Of a stretch of 64,000 nucleotides of DNA, positions 2,144 through 21,796 are shown in pieces. A program made the translations under genes and the position numbers. This DNA comes from Syntrophaceae bacterium (lineage in GTDB: Bacteria > Desulfobacterota > Syntrophia > Syntrophales > UBA2185): the NCBI GenBank assembly GCA_003153775.1, contig PMBI01000050.1:191325-255324 (forward strand). Reading direction: 5' to 3'. Position 1 is the stretch's first letter. Every line of letters starts with the position of its first letter. The notes beneath the pieces were generated by a model. That model did no database searches and was not told where the DNA came from. It worked only from the letters and a program-made list of their open reading frames with translations.

Positions 2144-3274
2144 TTATTGAAGCTTCAGCGGCATTACTATACACAGATAATCGTCTTTCTCGGCAGGCCT
2201 TATGACGCCCGGTTTCATGCCCGCCCCTATTTCAAAAATGACGATTTTTTCATCGATAACTTCTATGGCATCAATCAAGTATTTGACGTTATAACCTACG
2301 GAGAACTCACTATCGTGGTAGTCTACTTCAATCTCATCTTTGGCTTCTCCCACATCCGGATTAGCCGATTCCAACACCATTCTGCCATCGTCCAATTTAA
2401 TTATTACTCCACTGTACCTTTCGCTTGATATAACGCTCATCCTTTTCAAGGCATGCAGAATCGCATCCTTATCGAATTGCACGAGGACTCCCTTCTCCGT
2501 GGGTATGACCCGCTTATAATCCGGATAATCCGCATCAACCAGGCTAACCTTTAACATGGTGCTGTCTGTTTTGATAACGCACATGCCCTGCCGCACCCCG
2601 ACGAAGATATCCTCGGGTGCATTTTCTATGAGCCTTCTGATTTCACCCAATCCCTTTCTGGGAATTATAACCCCCTTTTCCATCCGCAGGAAAGCTGCCC
2701 CCTCTACATCCACATTAGCCATAGCCAGGCGATGACCATCCGTCGCGATCATGCGCAACTTATTCTTGCCACCGTCATCTATAGTTTCAAAGAATACTCC
2801 ATTTAAGTTTTTCCTCATTTCATCTGCCGACATGGCAAATGATGTCTTACGTATCAATCTCTCAATCAATTGCCCCTTAATCTTATAAAAATTCAATTCA
2901 CTGCGATCATCAACAACACTGGGGAAGTCGTCTGCCGGCAAGCCGGGTATCTTATAGATTATTTTTTTAGAGGTCAGTATTACCCTGTGGCTCTCGTTTG
3001 CTTCAAACTGAACTGTATCACCCTCAATCTCTCTGATCATTTCATATAGTTTTCTTGCAGAAACAGTAACATCGCCTTTGTTTATGATTTCTGCTTGATA
3101 GTCTGCCACCAACCCTATCTCCCTGTCGGTCGCCACAATTGTTATTTTATCTTTTTCCGCCCTGATCAAAACATTGTTGAGGATCGGCATGGTTGTTTTC
3201 TTCTCCACGATGCTGAGCGTCTTTTGGATGCCTTCCAGAAAAGAATCTCTTTGTATATTAAATTTCATGACCAT
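2144..3274 (-). CDS. dnaN: DNA polymerase III sliding clamp (beta subunit)
   Basis: 376-aa ORF between dnaA and gyrB; C-terminus YLCIVMPLKLQ typical of beta clamp. Confidence 0.96.
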   Translation of the reverse strand: MVMKFNIQRDSFLEGIQKTLSIVEKKTTMPILNNVLIRAEKDKITIVATDREIGLVADYQAEIINKGDVTVSARKLYEMIREIEGDTVQFEANESHRVILTSKKIIYKIPGLPADDFPSVVDDRSELNFYKIKGQLIERLIRKTSFAMSADEMRKNLNGVFFETIDDGGKNKLRMIATDGHRLAMANVDVEGAAFLRMEKGVIIPRKGLGEIRRLIENAPEDIFVGVRQGMCVIKTDSTMLKVSLVDADYPDYKRVIPTEKGVLVQFDKDAILHALKRMSVISSERYSGVIIKLDDGRMVLESANPDVGEAKDEIEVDYHDSEFSVGYNVKYLIDAIEVIDEKIVIFEIGAGMKPGVIRPAEKDDYLCIVMPLKLQ

Positions 3275-4827: not shown

Positions 4828-5700
4828 TTACCTGGAGAATCTCTTACTCTCGACGACATTCATCAGTAATGTCACAAGCCGATTCAGTTCTTCCGCCGTC
4901 TTAAACTTGATATCTATAGACCCCTTGTTCTTGCGCTGGCGAATATGAATTTCCGTCATCAGCTTCGAAGAGAGCTGTTTTTCAAGATCGCGAAGAAGCG
5001 GGTCCTTTTTCTTGCCCTTCTTTTCCGGGGGTGTTTTTCTCAGTTTTTGAATCAGGCCTTCAGTTTCCCGGACGCTGAGAGCCTTTTTTATGATAACGTT
5101 GAGGAACCTGACCTGTTCTCCCGGCGAATCGAGCATGAGTATGGATCTTGCGTGCCCGGAACTAATGGTCTTATTGATCAGGGCCGACCTGATTTCCCGG
5201 GGCAGTTTCAGCAACCTCAAAGTGTTGGCAATGGTTGAGCGGTCCTTCCCCACCCGGGAAGAAAGCTCCTCCTGTGACAGACTGAACTGATTGATCAAGG
5301 TCTGGTAAGCTTCAGCTTCTTCAACAGGATTCAAATTTTCACGCAGAAGATTCTCTAAGAGAGACAATTCTGCCGCCGCTGCGTCGGGAGCCTCTCTTAT
5401 AATAACCGGGACTTCTTTGAGGCCTGCTTCCTGAGCGGCTCTCCATCTACGCTCCCCCGCTATGATCTCGTAGCCCGAATTGGATCTACGCACCACGATA
5501 GGCTGAATAATGCCGTTCTTCTTTATGGATGCGACAAGGCGTTTCTGTTCCTTGTCGTTGAAATCCTTGCGGGCCTGGAACCGGTTGGGGGAAAGCTCTT
5601 CGACGCCGCATACGATGTATGAAGGCCTTGTGCTGACATTGTCAAGCAGGTCGGGAAATAAAGCCCCGAGCCCCTTGCCGAGGGAACTTTTTGGCTGCAT
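4828..5700 (-). CDS. parB: Chromosome partitioning protein ParB
   Basis: IIQPIVVRRSNSGYEIIAGERRWRAAQEAG; LLENLLRENLNPVEEAEAY. Confidence 0.95.
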   Translation of the reverse strand: MQPKSSLGKGLGALFPDLLDNVSTRPSYIVCGVEELSPNRFQARKDFNDKEQKRLVASIKKNGIIQPIVVRRSNSGYEIIAGERRWRAAQEAGLKEVPVIIREAPDAAAAELSLLENLLRENLNPVEEAEAYQTLINQFSLSQEELSSRVGKDRSTIANTLRLLKLPREIRSALINKTISSGHARSILMLDSPGEQVRFLNVIIKKALSVRETEGLIQKLRKTPPEKKGKKKDPLLRDLEKQLSSKLMTEIHIRQRKNKGSIDIKFKTAEELNRLVTLLMNVVESKRFSR

Positions 5701-13915: not shown

Positions 13916-15577
13916 TCAGTCTCTTAAAATGGCGCCTGTACTTGCGGAAGTCACTAGTCCGGCATACCGTACGAGGTAACCGCTTTTTATTGCCGGTCGC
14001 CGCGGCCTGAATTTAGCCTGCCTCTTCTTCAATTCGACCGGACTCACATTGAGGGTGATCGTCTTTTTGGGGATGTTGATGGCGATAATATCGCCTTCCC
14101 TGACAAGACCAATGGGACCTCCCTCGGCTGCCTCCGGAGAAATGTGTCCGATAGCCGCCCCGCGGGTTCCGCCGCTGAACCGTCCATCAGTCAGGAGCGC
14201 CACCGTCGTATCGAGCCCCATACCGGCGATGACCGACGTCGGCGCCAGCATCTCGCGCATACCCGGTCCACCCTTCGGCCCCTCGTAGCGGATGACGACG
14301 ACGTCGCCTGCTTTGATCTTCCCGCCGAGGATGGAGGCAATGGCATCGTCCTCGGAGTCGAAGACCCGGGCCTTACCTTTATTGACGAGCATTCTCTCAG
14401 CAACGGCGGACTGCTTGACAACAGCGCCATCGGGGGCCAGATTACCCCGCAGGATGGCGATACCCCCTTCTTTCGAATAAGGATTGTTAAGCGGCCGGAT
14501 GACGTCACTGTTTAGCACCGCAGCTTCTTTTAGGTTGACACCGACCATCTTCCCTGTAACTGTCAAAGCCTTCAGGTCGATGACGCCAAGCTTGCTGATT
14601 TGCTTCATCACCGCCTGGACTCCGCCTGCCATGTCCAGGTCTTCCAGATGGTGCTGCCCTGCGGGACTTAGCTTGCAGAGATTAGGGGTCTTCTTGCTGA
14701 TCTCGTTAAAGAGGTCGAGATCCAGCTTAATTCCCGCTTCATGGGCAATGGCGGGGATGTGGAGGACCGTATTGGTTGAGCAGCCGAGGGCCATGTCTAC
14801 TGCGATGGCATTCTTGAAGGCCGAAAGTGTCGCGATCTTTCTCGGACGGATATCTTTTTTGAAGAGTTCCATGATCTTCATGCCGGCCTTCTTCGCGAGA
14901 CGCCTCCTGGCCGCGTGAACGGCAGGGACGGTGCCATTTCCGGGAAGGCCGAGACCGAGGGCCTCGGTTACGCAGTTCATGGAATTTGCCGTGTACATGC
15001 CTGAGCATGATCCGCAGCCGGGACAGGCACAGTCTTCCAGGGCCTTTAGATATTTTTCCTTCATCTGGCGGGATTTCACCTTTCCCACACCTTCGAAGAC
15101 GCTGATGAGATCAACCGTCTTCCCTTCCAGGGTGCCCGCCATCATGGGACCGCCGCTGATGAAGATGGTAGGGATGTTCAGGCGAAGCGCGGCCATCAAC
15201 ATTCCGGGGATGATCTTGTCGCAATTGGGGACCATGACCAGAGCATCAAAGGGATGGGCGATAGCCATGACTTCAATGGAATCGGCGATCAGCTCGCGGC
15301 TGGCAAGGGAGTATTTCATGCCTGTATGTCCCATGGCAATCCCGTCGCAGACGCCGATGACGGGGAATTCGACAGGCGTGCCGCCTGCCATGCGGATGCC
15401 CGCCTTTACGTCTTCAGTTATAAGGTCCAAGTGAATATGTCCGGGTATGATTTCATTGGCGGAATTCACGACGCCGATCAACGGCTGCGCAATTTCTTCA
15501 TCCGTATACCCCATGGCTTTGAAGAGAGATCTGTGGGGCGCCCGTTCAAGCCCCTTTTTCATCAGGTCGCTTCGCAT
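13916..15577 (-). CDS. ilvD: Dihydroxy-acid dehydratase
   Basis: [41 protein letters not shown]. Confidence 0.97.
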
Positions 15578-15652
15578 GCTTTCCTCCTTTTATTTCTTGC
15601 AATGAGCGGAATGCAGACAACCTCGTAGTGCAACTCTTCCGCTTAGTAATGC

Positions 15653-16699
15653 CTACTTTTTTCTACGCTCCGGTCTCAATGAGCGAACCACTGCGCCCGC
15701 CCGCCACATTTCGCTATTCTTTATGGCATCGAGTTCCTTTTGCAGTTTCTCTCTGTAATCTGGGGCGGAGTTTACCTCAAGGACTATGGCGGTTTCCTTG
15801 CCGGATGCCACCCTATCGTACAACTCATCGAATACAGGCGCTACAGCATCACGGAATCTGTTTTTCCAGTCCAAGGCGCCCCTCTGGGCAGTTGTGCTGC
15901 AATTGGCATACATCCAGTCCATACCATTTTGCGCTACAAGCGGCATGAGGCTCTGGGTCAATTCCTCGACAGTCTCATTGAAGGCTTCACTGGGGCTGTG
16001 TCCATGCTTGCGGAGAACATTATACTGCGCCTCCAGAACACCGGCGAGACAACCCATCAGGACGCCGCGCTCACCCGTGAGGTCGCTGTAAACTTCCTGT
16101 TCAAACGTGGTGGGGAAGAGATACCCCGATCCTATGGCAATGCCGACGGCAATGGTTCTTTCCATGGCCTTTCCCGTGGCGTTCTGGAAAACGGCGTAGC
16201 TCGAATTTATGCCACTTCCCGCAAGAAAGTTGTCGCGCACCGTGCGTCCGGCACCTTTTGGCGCTACCAGTATAACATCGATGTCAGAGGGGGGGATCAC
16301 ACCGGTCTGATCTTTATACACGATGGAGAATCCATGAGAAAAATAGAGGGCCTTTCCTTTTGTCAATTGGAGTTTTAATTCCGGCCACATGGCCTTCTGG
16401 CTGGCATCCGACATCAGGTACTGAATGATTGTGCCGCGTTTTGCAGCTTCCATTGGTGGAAACAGCGTCTCGCCCGGCTTAAAGCCTTCGTCAATGGCCT
16501 TCTGCCAGTTGAAGTCGCCTTCGCCCACGATACAACGGACACCGTTATCCCTCATGTTTAGGGCTTGACCGCGTCCCTGTACACCGTAGCCAATGACGGC
16601 AACCGTTTCATCCTTGAGCACTTTGCGCGCCTTTTCGAGGGTGAACTCCTCTGATGTGACAACCTCTTCCATGACCCCGCCGATGTTGATTTTAGGCAT
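15653..16699 (-). CDS. ilvC: Ketol-acid reductoisomerase (eukaryote/fungal-like form)
   Basis: VIGYGVQGRGQALNMRDNG; ILVAPKGAGRTVRDNF; GINSSYAVFQNATGKA; GHSPSEAFNETVEELTQSL. Confidence 0.95.
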   Translation of the reverse strand: MPKINIGGVMEEVVTSEEFTLEKARKVLKDETVAVIGYGVQGRGQALNMRDNGVRCIVGEGDFNWQKAIDEGFKPGETLFPPMEAAKRGTIIQYLMSDASQKAMWPELKLQLTKGKALYFSHGFSIVYKDQTGVIPPSDIDVILVAPKGAGRTVRDNFLAGSGINSSYAVFQNATGKAMERTIAVGIAIGSGYLFPTTFEQEVYSDLTGERGVLMGCLAGVLEAQYNVLRKHGHSPSEAFNETVEELTQSLMPLVAQNGMDWMYANCSTTAQRGALDWKNRFRDAVAPVFDELYDRVASGKETAIVLEVNSAPDYREKLQKELDAIKNSEMWRAGAVVRSLRPERRKK

Positions 16700-16778: not shown

Positions 16779-17276
16779 CTATTTCTGACGCTCCACGGCG
16801 ACAACTCCCGTTCTCGTAAAATCATCCATACCCATCTTGTCCAAAAAAGCAAGGGCGTCGTCGATGTCTTTTTTGCCGCCCGTCACTTCCAGTATGCAGG
16901 TATCAACGTCCATCTTTACAATCTTCCACTTAAGCGTGTCAACAGTCTGCATGATCTTCACTTGATTCGCATCGGTTAATTTCATCCTCACCAGGACCAT
17001 TTCCCGGCAGGCCGCATTGGCCCGCGTCAGATCCTTCACTTCAAGGACATCGATAATCTTTGTCAGCTGCTTTTCAAGTTTGATGACGGTCTCCCGGTTA
17101 CCGAGGGTGGTAATAACGATTCTGGTAATTTCAGGATTCCTCGTGATGTTTGCCGAGATGCTTTCGATATTGAACCCCCGGCCGCTGAAGGTTCCCGCGA
17201 TCCTGGCCAGAACGTCGGGCCTGTTATTTACCAAGATGGAAATGGTATTCTCCTTTACTTCCATAAGCTCATTCAC
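16779..17276 (-). CDS. ilvN: Acetolactate synthase small subunit (copy 1)
   Basis: ISILVNNRPDVLARIAGTFSGRGFNIESI ACT domain. Confidence 0.95.
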   Translation of the reverse strand: MNELMEVKENTISILVNNRPDVLARIAGTFSGRGFNIESISANITRNPEITRIVITTLGNRETVIKLEKQLTKIIDVLEVKDLTRANAACREMVLVRMKLTDANQVKIMQTVDTLKWKIVKMDVDTCILEVTGGKKDIDDALAFLDKMGMDDFTRTGVVAVERQK

Positions 17277-17308: not shown

Positions 17309-18997
17309 CTATTTGCTCAAGACCATATCCGTCAGCGCCGCACCCGGTGAAACCATGGGGTAGACACCTTCCTCGGGTTCTACATGGAAATCCATTACGA
17401 CCGTCTTCGGAGTATCGAGACCCTTCCTTAATGTGGCCTCCACCTCTTCGGAGCGTGTCGCCCGCAGGCCGACAGCGCCATAAGCCTCGGCAAGCTTCAC
17501 AAAGTCAGGCACATTATCTATATTGCTGTGGGAATAACGCTTCCCGTAGAACAGTTCCTGCCATTGGCGGACCATGCCCAAAAATCCGTTATTGAGGATG
17601 ACGATCTTGACGGGAAGGTCATAATTGACAGCCGTCGCCAGCTCCTGAATATTCATCTGGATACTTCCATCTCCGGCAATGTCTACGACGACCTTGTCAG
17701 GACGCGCAACCTGCGCGCCGATCGCAGCCGGGAATCCATAACCCATTGTTCCCAGGCCGCCCGATGTAATGAATGAATTGGGATAATCGAAATGATAATA
17801 CTGCGCCGCCCACATCTGGTTCTGCCCCACCTCTGTCGAGATGATAGCTTTTCCTTCCGTGAGGCGATAGAGTGTTTCCACGACGTATTGAGGCTTGATC
17901 TTATCTGACTGACAGTATGTCAAGGGCGCGAACTCTTTCCACTTCTGAACTTGCTCAAGCCATGCCTTTGTTTGCTTTTCGGGCCTCGCAAAACTCTTGT
18001 CGGAAATCCATTTATTGAGCAGCTGCAACACGGGCTTGCAATCGCTTGCAATCGATAGATGCGTCTTTACAAATTTATCGATGGATGCCGGGTCAATATC
18101 TACATGAAGTACCTTGGCATGGGGCGCAAAGGCGTCAAGCTTCGACGTAACCCGATCATCAAAACGGACACCGAGCGCGATCAAGAGGTCGCAATTACTG
18201 ATTGCCATATTGGCGTAATAGGTACCGTGCATACCCGGCATGCCGAGCCAATGTGGGTCGGATGCAGGGAACGCTCCGAGCCCCATAAGGGTTGAGGTGA
18301 TGGGTACGTTGAGCAGTTTCACAAATGTTCTCAACTCGTCCCAGGCCCGCCCGAGAAGCACGCCGCCCCCCGAGATGACGAGTGGTCTTTCCGCCTGCCT
18401 GATCATGTCAAGCGCTTTAGCACAGGCATCTTCGATGGAGGCCTTCTTGTTGTTATTGGGAAGACTCAGTGTCCAGGATATGTCATTATCCTCGATAAGA
18501 GACTTCGTAATATCCTTGGGAATATCGATAAGGACGGGACCGGGGCGTCCCGAGCGGGCGATATGAAAGGCTTCCCTGACGATGCGTCCCAGGTCGTCAA
18601 TCCGCCTGACCAGAAAATTATGTTTCGTGCACGGTCTTGTAATACCGGTGATGTCCACTTCCTGAAAGGCGTCGCCGCCGATCAAGGAGGTCGCCACCTG
18701 ACCCGTCAGCACGACGACGGGAATGGAATCCATAAATGCATTCGCTATACCGGTTACCGTATTTGTCGCTCCAGGCCCTGACGTCACCAGGCATACACCA
18801 ACCTTGCCGGAAACCCGCGCATATCCGTCGGCTGCGTGGATGGCGCCCTGTTCATGCCGTACTAAAATATTTCTAATCTTTCTTCTGTACAGTTCATCAA
18901 AGATGTCGAGTACGGCTCCACCGGGAAATCCGAAGATCGTATCTGCATTCTCCTTTTGCAAGGCCTCAAAAAGGACTTGTGCTCCCGTTAACTTCAC
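17309..18997 (-). CDS. ilvB: Acetolactate synthase large subunit (copy 1)
   Basis: FGFPGGAVLDIFDELYRR; HEQGAIHAADGYARVSGKVGVCLVTSGPGATN; GDGSIQMNIQELATA. Confidence 0.97.
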   Translation of the reverse strand: MKLTGAQVLFEALQKENADTIFGFPGGAVLDIFDELYRRKIRNILVRHEQGAIHAADGYARVSGKVGVCLVTSGPGATNTVTGIANAFMDSIPVVVLTGQVATSLIGGDAFQEVDITGITRPCTKHNFLVRRIDDLGRIVREAFHIARSGRPGPVLIDIPKDITKSLIEDNDISWTLSLPNNNKKASIEDACAKALDMIRQAERPLVISGGGVLLGRAWDELRTFVKLLNVPITSTLMGLGAFPASDPHWLGMPGMHGTYYANMAISNCDLLIALGVRFDDRVTSKLDAFAPHAKVLHVDIDPASIDKFVKTHLSIASDCKPVLQLLNKWISDKSFARPEKQTKAWLEQVQKWKEFAPLTYCQSDKIKPQYVVETLYRLTEGKAIISTEVGQNQMWAAQYYHFDYPNSFITSGGLGTMGYGFPAAIGAQVARPDKVVVDIAGDGSIQMNIQELATAVNYDLPVKIVILNNGFLGMVRQWQELFYGKRYSHSNIDNVPDFVKLAEAYGAVGLRATRSEEVEATLRKGLDTPKTVVMDFHVEPEEGVYPMVSPGAALTDMVLSK

Positions 18998-19090: not shown

Positions 19091-19126
19091 AAAAAAAAAC
19101 CGTTACCTTTTGCTGGTAACGGTTTT
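19091..19126 (-). terminator. Intrinsic terminator (attenuator) downstream of Ile-rich leader peptide
   Basis: aaaaccgttacc-ttttgct-ggtaacggtttt, 12-bp stem with A-run (U-run on minus-strand transcript) at 19091-19099. Confidence 0.85.
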
Positions 19127-19156
19127 TACTGCGAACTATGTGCTAAACGCAAACCA

Positions 19157-19234
19157 TCATCCAGCCCTCCTATGGAAGGGAATGATTATCCCGATAATAA
19201 TTATGATGATGTTTGCGATACTAAACGCGTGCAT
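19157..19234 (-). CDS. ilvBN (copy 1) attenuator leader peptide MHAFSIANIIIIIIGIIIPFHRRAG
   Basis: 25-codon ORF on minus strand (ATG CAC GCG TTT AGT ATC GCA AAC ATC ATC ATA ATT ATT ATC GGG ATA ATC ATT CCC TTC CAT AGG AGG GCT GGA TGA) with 10 Ile codons, between a promoter-like site and a terminator upstream of ilvB. Confidence 0.85.
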   Translation of the reverse strand: MHAFSIANIIIIIIGIIIPFHRRAG

Positions 19235-19261
19235 GTCGTTATCAATCCTCACTATGAAATC

Positions 19262-19290
19262 TTTTTAACAGCCTCCCACGGTATTGTCAA
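19262..19290 (-). promoter_or_regulatory. Sigma70-like promoter for the Ile-leader/ilvBN copy 1 transcript
   Basis: Minus strand TTGACA-N17-TAAAAA about 25-30 nt upstream of leader ATG. Confidence 0.6.
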
Positions 19291-19309: not shown

Positions 19310-19822
19310 TTAGATTCTTCTCTGTGGTTTCGTTCTCTCGATGGCAATTGATCCGGTTCTATTTATTTCCTCCACACCGAATGACTGGAAGAATTTCAGG
19401 AATGCCGCCGTTTCATCCGGCTGACCCGTCAATTCGAGGATGAAATAATCCGGTGTCATGGTGACGATTCTGCAACCGAACAGTTCAATTGCCCTCAGGA
19501 TATCTGAATAGGCCCCTTCTTTGACGGTAAGGCCGATCAACATCAACTCTCTCTGAATGTAGGATTGTCCCGAGACATCGGAGACTTCGATGACATCCAC
19601 AAGTTTATCCAGTTGTTTCTTTATCTTTTCCGTAAAGTCAGGATCCGATTCGCTGGTCAGGGTGATTCTCGAAACATCCCGGTTCGTAGTTTCCGCCACG
19701 CAAAGGCTCTTGATGTTGTATCCATGGCGGCCAAACACGCCTCCCACACGGGAGAGCACGCCCGGTTGATTGTTTACGAGGATGGAAATAGTCTGTTCCT
19801 GTTCGCGTGCCTTTTTTAACAT
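19310..19822 (-). CDS. ilvN: Acetolactate synthase small subunit (copy 2)
   Basis: QTISILVNNQPGVLSRVGGVFGRHGYNIKSL ACT domain. Confidence 0.94.
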   Translation of the reverse strand: MLKKAREQEQTISILVNNQPGVLSRVGGVFGRHGYNIKSLCVAETTNRDVSRITLTSESDPDFTEKIKKQLDKLVDVIEVSDVSGQSYIQRELMLIGLTVKEGAYSDILRAIELFGCRIVTMTPDYFILELTGQPDETAAFLKFFQSFGVEEINRTGSIAIERTKPQRRI

Positions 19823-19845: not shown

Positions 19846-21519
19846 TCAGTCAAGTCTGTCGTACATCATCTCGATATTCGAGCATCCCGGCGGGATGATG
19901 GGGTAGACATAGTTCTCCGGATCAACAACGGCCTCCAGGAGATAAGGGCCATCGGCCTTTACCATAGCCTCGATGCCCGCCTGCGGATCTTTATCCACGG
20001 CAATTCTGCTCCCCGGGATGCCGAAGCCCCGGGCCACCGCTACAAAATCAACCTTGCTTCCCAATTCAATGGTGTTAAAACGGGCATTGTAAAAAAGGTC
20101 CTGAATCTGGCGGATCATCCCGAGATGCCCATTATTGATGACGACTATCTTTATCGGTAAATTGTAATAGCTGATGGTGGCCAATTCCTGGATGTTCATG
20201 TAGAATCCTCCGTCGCCTGTGATAGCGACGACGGCCCTCTCCGGAGTGCCGATCTTGGCGCCGATAGCTGCGGGCAGGCTGAATCCCATAGTGCCCATGC
20301 CGCCGCTGGTGATGAGACTGCGGGGGCTCCGTGCCTGCCAGGTGCGCACTGTCCATATCTGATTCAGTCCCACATCCGCAGTCACCGTTGTTTCGACAGG
20401 CATGGCCTCCTGTACCATCCGAATAAAATCTCCCGCCAGTCCGCATCCCGTGTCCGCGACTTTTCCGGTGATGGCATCGCGCTCAGACTGTATTCTCTGT
20501 AGCCACTCCGATTTTTCCTTTGCATCTATCAGGGGCAGCAAGGCCGTCAGCGCGTCGCGAATATCCCCGACGTAAGGCAGATTAATCTTGATGCTCTTTC
20601 CGATCGAAGTAGGGTCGATATCGATCTGGGCAATTTTTGCCAGAGGCGCAAATTCTTCGATGAGTGCCGTGCTGCGGTCTGAGAAGCGTGTGCCTATGGC
20701 CAGGATAAAATCGCACTGATGCACCATACTATTTGCCAGTTCATTGCCGTGCGTTCCTATCAACCCCAGGTTGTATCCATTGATGGAGTCAACGGAGCCA
20801 ATGCCCATCATCGTAGTGACGAAAGGAATCTTCGCCTTCTCAATCAGCTCGCGTACCAGAAGAAATGCGTTGCTCAGTTTAACACCACCTCCAATGATGA
20901 GGATCGGTCTTTCGCTCTGATTCAATGTCTTGGCGATCATCTCCAGCTGTTCACGATCTTCTTCAGTCTTGTAGTTCGCCTTCAGCGCAGGGGCAGCTTT
21001 CTCTTCTGCCGCCGGGCATTTCGACGACAGGATGTCGCGGGGGAGATCCACGAGAACCGGACCCGGCCTGCCGGTCTTGGCCAGTTCAAATGCCTGCCGC
21101 AGCGTTGCTGCAAGATTATTCACATCGTGCACCTGATAACTGTGTTTTGTGATAGGCAAGGTTATCCCGATGATGTCCGTTTCCTGGAAGGCATCCTGGC
21201 CCAGGAGGCTCGTGCTCACCTGCGCCGTGAGGGCGACCATGGGCGTTGAGTCCATGAACGCCGTGGCAATGCCCGTCACCAGGTTGGTGGCACCGGGCCC
21301 GGACGTGGCGATACATACGCCTACTTTTCCCGTAGCACGCGCGTAGCCGTCAGCAGCGTGAGCTGCTGCCTGTTCGTGTCGCATGAGATAATGCCGGACC
21401 TCACTGTTTATCAACCGGTCATGGATAGGTAGGGTGTTTGCCCCCGGGTATCCGAAGATTACATCAACCCCTTCCTCCCTTAATATTTGTATGATTATAT
21501 CCGCTCCAATGGTTTCCAT
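19846..21519 (-). CDS. ilvB: Acetolactate synthase large subunit (copy 2)
   Basis: IFGYPGANTLPIHDRL; HEQAAAHAADGYARATGKVGVCIATSGPGATN; GDGGFYMNIQELATI. Confidence 0.96.
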   Translation of the reverse strand: METIGADIIIQILREEGVDVIFGYPGANTLPIHDRLINSEVRHYLMRHEQAAAHAADGYARATGKVGVCIATSGPGATNLVTGIATAFMDSTPMVALTAQVSTSLLGQDAFQETDIIGITLPITKHSYQVHDVNNLAATLRQAFELAKTGRPGPVLVDLPRDILSSKCPAAEEKAAPALKANYKTEEDREQLEMIAKTLNQSERPILIIGGGVKLSNAFLLVRELIEKAKIPFVTTMMGIGSVDSINGYNLGLIGTHGNELANSMVHQCDFILAIGTRFSDRSTALIEEFAPLAKIAQIDIDPTSIGKSIKINLPYVGDIRDALTALLPLIDAKEKSEWLQRIQSERDAITGKVADTGCGLAGDFIRMVQEAMPVETTVTADVGLNQIWTVRTWQARSPRSLITSGGMGTMGFSLPAAIGAKIGTPERAVVAITGDGGFYMNIQELATISYYNLPIKIVVINNGHLGMIRQIQDLFYNARFNTIELGSKVDFVAVARGFGIPGSRIAVDKDPQAGIEAMVKADGPYLLEAVVDPENYVYPIIPPGCSNIEMMYDRLD

Positions 21520-21552: not shown

Positions 21553-21584
21553 AAAAAGCCGCCAGTCCATCTGCACAGCGGCTT
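21553..21584 (-). terminator. Second terminator-like hairpin downstream of Val-rich leader
   Basis: aagccgc ... gcggctt stem with A-run (aaaaa) on + strand, i.e. U-run on minus transcript. Confidence 0.65.
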
Positions 21585-21593
21585 GTAAGGCAT

Positions 21594-21624
21594 AAAAAAG
21601 CCGCGGGCTTTAGGGGCCCGCGGC
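21594..21624 (-). terminator. Intrinsic terminator (attenuator) downstream of Val-rich leader peptide
   Basis: aaaaaa-gccgcgggc-tttaggg-gcccgcggc; perfect 9-bp GC stem plus U-run on minus transcript. Confidence 0.88.
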
Positions 21625-21645
21625 TCTTCGTTCTATGTCATTCCG

Positions 21646-21735
21646 TCACAGAAACCGAGCAGCGGTCCCCCGAAGTACAGATACTACTACTACGGCTACG
21701 TTAAGGGTGCTGGTGCTCAGGCTGCAACGGGTCAT
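21646..21735 (-). CDS. ilvBN (copy 2) attenuator leader peptide MTRCSLSTSTLNVAVVVVSVLRGTAARFL
   Basis: 29-codon ORF with Val run (VAVVVVSVL, all six Val codons GTA); RBS AAGG 7 nt upstream; terminator follows; directly upstream of ilvB. Confidence 0.88.
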   Translation of the reverse strand: MTRCSLSTSTLNVAVVVVSVLRGTAARFL

Positions 21736-21768
21736 CTGCTTACCTTTGTTCGTTAATCTTGACCTAAT

Positions 21769-21796
21769 CTTATATATAAAAAATCAGATTTGTCAA
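21769..21796 (-). promoter_or_regulatory. Sigma70-like promoter for the Val-leader/ilvBN copy 2 transcript
   Basis: Minus strand TTGACA-N16-TATAAG. Confidence 0.65.

Follow-up and report, generated by a model that had tools for sequence, protein, structure and literature searches.

A probable valine-sensing transcription attenuator with tandem terminators upstream of ilvB2N2 in Syntrophales

The leader preceding the acetolactate synthase genes ilvB2N2 of a Syntrophaceae bacterium is very probably a ribosome-mediated transcription attenuator sensing charged tRNA-Val. This reading follows from sequence comparison, namely from a short ORF and its codon bias, the alternative pairings of segments 2:3 and 3:4, a second terminator (T2) and the complementarity of segments 4 and 5. 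The short leader ORF abounds in codons for the regulated amino acid and is separated from the first structural gene by an intrinsic terminator predicted from sequence and fold. The downstream genes, i.e. ilvB2N2 and ilvB1N1, then ilvC and ilvD, make the amino acid that would be sensed. An antiterminator shares the 5' arm of the terminator and is so placed that a ribosome at the leader stop codon would block it.

Architecture of the valine leader

The window, i.e. the whole stretch of DNA that was analysed, spans 64,000 nt. The leader lies on its minus strand, as do all the features located below, in the 295 nt that separate the end of the PBP1A gene (21815) from the ilvB2 start (ATG at 21519). 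Its promoter (21767-21796), predicted from the sequence and a promoter scan, combines TTGACA (21796-21791) with a -10 element that may be either TATAAG (21774-21769, 16-nt spacer) or TAAGAT (21772-21767, 18-nt spacer). On sequence comparison, relatives also carry TTGACA upstream of the leader. A Shine-Dalgarno-like AAAGG (21743-21747) stands 7 nt 5' of the leader ATG. The ORF (21646-21735) comprises 29 codons encoding MTRCSLSTSTLNVAVVVVSVLRGTAARFL and is kept in 27/27 relatives found by protein. Its control region (21676-21699, codons 13-20) contains six GTA codons, which are all the Val codons of the ORF.

Downstream of the ORF, terminator T1 (21626-21594, pairing 3:4) is a perfect GC-rich stem, GCCGCGGGC...GCCCGCGGC, with a fold energy of -22.9 kcal/mol and a U-run of six T. 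It is followed by T2 (21584-21553, pairing 5:6; -14.8 kcal/mol), in which AAGCCGC...GCGGCTT precedes a T-run and segment 5 covers 21584-21578. The promoter and terminator scan listed no minus-strand terminators here, both T1 and T2 being read directly from the sequence. The Val run is not a chance product: when the intergenic region was dinucleotide-shuffled, a short ORF with six Val per eight residues arose in 0/5000 cases, and 0/2000 shuffles gave a perfect stem with a T-run like that of T1. The promoter, ribosome-binding site, 29-residue ORF with six GTA codons, perfect terminator and second hairpin before ilvB announced in the original prediction are thus all present in the sequence.

Alternative pairings and the tandem terminators

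Segment 2 (GGGGACCGCTGCTC, 21670-21657), located within the leader ORF, is the 5' arm of an antiterminator whose other arm is segment 3 (GAGCCGCGGGCCCC, 21626-21613). Segment 3 is also the 5' arm of T1, so the two hairpins exclude each other; in the window, the folding energy of the antiterminator is -29.6 kcal/mol, against -22.9 for T1. An apical stem, TTCTGTG/CATAGAA (21653-21631), places the leader stop codon at the loop, and a ribosome there should therefore open the antiterminator. Segment 3 starts about 20 nt past the stop codon and, from general ribosome dimensions, should be free for T1 under these circumstances.

The same long hairpin was recovered when each relative was folded singly. 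In an alignment of 28 leaders made from sequence alone, i.e. not fitted to structure, pairing of the antiterminator stem reaches 95.2%, three of its pairs have changed on both sides, and its covariation score was matched by 0/500 shuffles. In a model-fitted alignment of 71 leaders, 95.9% of the stem cells are paired and six pairs show changes on both sides. When the apical stem is included, the number of pairs with both-side changes rises to 12, with 68 such cells (0/500 shuffles); in relatives this stem stays paired, with compensatory changes and a shifted register. Both antiterminator arms are altered together in L027 (GAGGGTTGC with GCGACCCTC) and in L021 (GGGGGACGCGGCT with AGCCGCGGCCCCC). 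T1 itself keeps its pairing in 96.1% of cells of the 71 leaders. The layout of ribosome-mediated attenuation put forward in the original prediction is supported by these compensatory changes and by the Val codons retained in the leaders of relatives, and the mutually exclusive structures that it implied were found. Beyond that prediction, the comparison identified the antiterminator itself, a possible role for T2 and a second leader at 19234-19091.

When valine is scarce, the ribosome would stall on the GTA codons and leave segment 2 free to pair with the emerging segment 3, by which T1 would be blocked. Segment 4 (GCGGCTT, 21604-21598), the 3' arm of T1, would then be freed and might pair with segment 5, its proposed alternative partner, so that T2 would be blocked too. 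With both terminators blocked, RNA polymerase would arrive at ilvB2N2. With valine in good supply, the ribosome would sit at the stop codon in the apical loop and cover segment 2; T1 and T2 would both form, with termination expected at both.

In this tandem relay, 2:3 with 4:5 would constitute the ON state and 3:4 with 5:6 the OFF state, and a relay function of 4:5 is modestly favoured. The complementarity between the T1 3' arm and the T2 5' arm is retained across relatives, in 99.4% of cells, and the pairing is possible in 71/71 aligned leaders; in the folding model, 4:5 is formed in all 71 before the T2 3' arm is synthesized. A doubtful but serious alternative keeps the same Val attenuator without any relay; T2 would then act on its own, as a fail-safe terminator, a partial terminator or a stabilising hairpin. 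Within the order, co-variation of 4:5 amounts essentially to one event (L016/L028/L161), which, together with the stem motif common to T1 and T2, means that 4:5 complementarity could stem from shared stem sequence. This GCCGC/GCGGC motif is nevertheless rare in unrelated terminator-like sites of the same loci (1/80). Moreover, the 4:5 arms of a given leader pair better with each other than with species-swapped arms, both within the order (p 2e-4, by permutation with kinship ignored) and in 22 distant leaders (-18.65 versus -16.78 kcal/mol, p 1.5e-4, by permutation with kinship ignored and on hand-picked arms). Energetically, 4:5 and T2 are nearly equal on average in the folding model (-15.4 versus -16.4 over 71 leaders), and the equilibrium somewhat favours T2 (median P(4:5) of 0.38). 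In the window leader, T2 is clearly favoured (-14.8 versus -10.2), as a terminator acting without a relay would have it. Against such a terminator stands the conservation of T2, paired in 99.6% of cells of the 71 leaders, since an efficient constitutive T2 would silence the operon despite antitermination at T1. As a strong constitutive T2 would defeat derepression in this way, T2 should have its own release.

Two further readings dispense with attenuation. The conserved ORF could encode a functional small hydrophobic protein to which the RNA structure is secondary; the peptide is indeed hydrophobic, and close relatives retain GTAAR(F/R)L at the C-terminus. This is very improbable, however, because the C-terminus follows the RNA pairing: L021, L017 and L027 alter the peptide and the partner arm together, and L177, L179 and L190 terminate directly after GTAA. 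The N-terminus and the length are variable as well, and a bias of Val codons towards a rare synonym is unexpected from protein function. It is hardly credible, finally, that ordinary terminators of the PBP1A gene, which ends just upstream, stand beside a Val-rich ORF of chance origin. The predicted promoter lies between that gene and the leader, the leader still precedes ilvB where no PBP1A gene is found upstream (L014-L016, L021), the shuffles gave 0/5000 and the antiterminator carries compensatory changes. A chance ORF followed by ordinary read-through terminators is ruled out by the shuffles and, more strongly, by conservation.

Codon preference, distribution and known attenuators

GTA is rare in the ilvB genes and dominant in their Val leaders. 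It accounts for 114/154 Val codons in 28 leaders versus 69/1075 in their ilvB genes. Among 71 leaders it represents 223/342 Val codons of the control regions and 69/71 final Val codons, whereas its share in the downstream genes is 9.4%. In 65/68 cases, the share in the leader exceeds that in the leader's own downstream gene. Overall, GTA makes up 65-74% of leader Val codons versus 6-9% in ilvB genes. Under standard decoding, GTA is read by tRNA-Val UAC only. In the window's own genome, the tRNAs examined include one tRNA-Val each with anticodons UAC, GAC and CAC, in a survey where 30/35 tRNA matches lay in the fetched loci as the match itself. The original prediction had read exclusive GTA usage as sensing of one tRNA-Val species; this is consistent with the three tRNA-Val. 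Across the order, GTA is strongly preferred rather than exclusive, and GTC is the second-commonest leader Val codon. The preference agrees with the proposal (PMC1183508) that a leader employs codons of the isoacceptor that is first to lose its charge. A structural role for GTA in the leader is conceivable. With one of three tRNA-Val that should read GTA, the Val leader offers a clean test case for synonymous-codon preference.

The ilvB loci of relatives were gathered from GTDB genomes via the IlvB protein, and a leader of the same plan precedes ilvB in 27/27 Syntrophales loci so found. This plan consists of a Val/Leu/Ile-rich peptide, mostly ending with G(T/A)AA and a few residues, followed by T1 and then T2. 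A covariance model built from the Syntrophales leaders matches 136/156 genomes of the class, in 45/54 genera, and in further loci of more distant families a Val-rich leader again precedes ilvB. In L027, attenuator and ilvB are set apart by repeat-like sequence (TGTCATTCCCGAATG...) some hundreds of bases long, at about 2670-3000. The genome to which the window belongs gave one match of the model to a Val leader and no further copies, a match at E=0.026 being a Trp leader. The Rfam copy searched gave no window match at gathering score; the best leader family for the Val leader was Thr_leader, with 17.8 bits and thus below the cut-off of 55. Membership of a known Rfam leader family (Thr, Leu, Trp, His, others) is rejected, as the gathering cut-off is not reached. 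The Val leader would be an order-wide regulatory RNA, unmatched in this Rfam copy, in mostly uncultured anaerobes.

The leaders of E. coli ilvBN (ivbL) and ilvGMEDA consist of a short ORF rich in branched-chain codons and of alternative antiterminator and terminator structures. The Val leader resembles them in having a short codon-rich ORF and alternative structures before acetolactate synthase genes. It differs in belonging to another phylum, in lacking an Rfam match at gathering score, in preferring the rare GTA and in carrying two conserved tandem terminators. The enteric his operon leader alternates between stems A:B, C:D, E:F and B:C, D:E, with only the last stem a terminator. A chain of alternative stems governed by ribosome position is common to both, whereas in the Val leader 3:4 and 5:6 both have U-runs.

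Attenuation of E. coli ilvBN and ilvGMEDA is cited in PMC1183508. In some Gammaproteobacteria, the rimP-leader also contains two tandem terminators, and a potential antiterminator accompanies the first of them; as presented in the corresponding part of PMC2965389, it is an inverse motif with neither an amino-acid leader peptide nor a strand relay. The Corynebacterium ilvBNC attenuator, or ilvB-II motif, likewise places attenuator hairpins and a uORF 5' of ilvB. It differs by its occurrence in Actinobacteria and by its three-hairpin model, which as outlined in the abstracts of PMC11857589 and PMC10272879 includes no T1/T2 relay. The literature searched yielded no Desulfobacterota attenuators or tandem-terminator relays, an earlier mention being possible. 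Attenuation is already known, and the conserved tandem relay, as proposed from sequence, is likely a new variant. If real, this relay would be a simple route to a tighter RNA switch.

The isoleucine leader and other proposed attenuators of Desulfobacterota

In the window, the operon order is ilvB2-ilvN2-ilvB1-ilvN1, followed by ORFs read as ilvC and ilvD. NCBIfam assigns ilvB2 (19846-21519) and ilvB1 (17309-18997) to acetolactate synthase large subunits, and ilvN2 (19310-19822) and ilvN1 (16779-17276) to small subunits. The genes ilvC (15653-16699) and ilvD (13916-15577), spanning 13916-16699, were named from their sequences by eye only; a homologue of the ilvC ORF lies downstream of ilvN in relatives. 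A second predicted attenuator, of Ile type (19091-19290), separates ilvN2 from ilvB1. It comprises a promoter-like TTGACA (19290-19285), a leader ORF encoding MHAFSIANIIIIIIGIIIPFHRRAG (19234-19157) and a single terminator (about 19127-19091; -16.5). The antiterminator arms (about 19165-19147 and 19133-19112; -18.9) are exclusive with this terminator. The window differs from E. coli ilv in that a single cluster holds both isozymes, and a separate leader precedes each of them.

The Ile-leader model R2 matches 55/156 genomes of the class. Nearly all of its 30 best loci lie directly 5' of an ilvB1-type gene, either by themselves or following ilvB2N2; in most of these loci the leader is Ile-rich. 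The Ile leader is thereby conserved in front of ilvB1-type genes in many Syntrophales. In L007, an assembly gap (NN) falls in the middle of an Ile leader (5195-5440).

The two isozymes differ at the position of a Trp reported as the key site of 2-ketobutyrate binding; in AHAS I, Gln takes its place (PMC5727371). By alignment of this position with E. coli isozyme 1, ilvB1 has Trp (MVRQWQ, 17558-17575), whereas ilvB2 has Ile (MIRQIQ, 20101-20118). Relatives of ilvB1 retain Trp in MVRQWQ, while those of ilvB2 have Ile, Met, Leu or Tyr there. From this difference, a Val leader would suit a valine-directed ilvB2 and an Ile leader an isoleucine-directed ilvB1, so that control by each leader fits the specificity predicted for its isozyme. 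Leader specificity may thereby be linked to enzyme specificity, with a Val leader on the Trp-less ilvB2 and an Ile leader on the Trp-bearing ilvB1. The pairing is not universal, since in some other families a Val leader precedes a Trp-type ilvB.

Such leaders might form a new class of Desulfobacterota attenuators whose control codons (Val, Trp, Leu, Tyr/Phe) are interchangeable and in which a single decision of the ribosome would be handed by strand exchange from T1 to T2 as a low-leak double lock. In part of the Syntrophales it would be paired with an Ile leader tuning the two isozymes separately. The chances of this broader view are about even. Weak matches of the Val model in other Desulfobacterota (L191-L212) correspond to leaders of tandem plan with Trp, Leu or Phe/Tyr codons, although the tandem T1 and T2 of these distant leaders partly reflect selection, as the search model includes both. 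Where the next gene was identified, the control codons match it, which speaks for the attenuator reading: Trp with trpE, Leu with leuA or leuB, Tyr/Phe with a gene for 2-amino-3,7-dideoxy-D-threo-hept-6-ulosonate synthase, and Ile/Leu/Val with ilvB. This matching leaves out L191, L199, L205, L207, L208 and L210, and for L200 the next gene is named only as an aminotransferase.

The window's own genome holds three more leaders. A Trp leader (L146, C37:187465-187545, minus strand; ..INWWWQNPMQGFVHR, TTG start) with tandem terminators lies before trpE. An Ile-containing leader (L243, C65:17815-17923; MRSTYTIRPISIEGIIRLIT) with a terminator and an alternative pairing precedes the citramalate synthase gene cimA of the Ile route, and a Leu leader (L246, C95; MKKALVNLNSDATLLLLALLRLLPNGRRPSFLGNP) with one terminator is found upstream of leuA.
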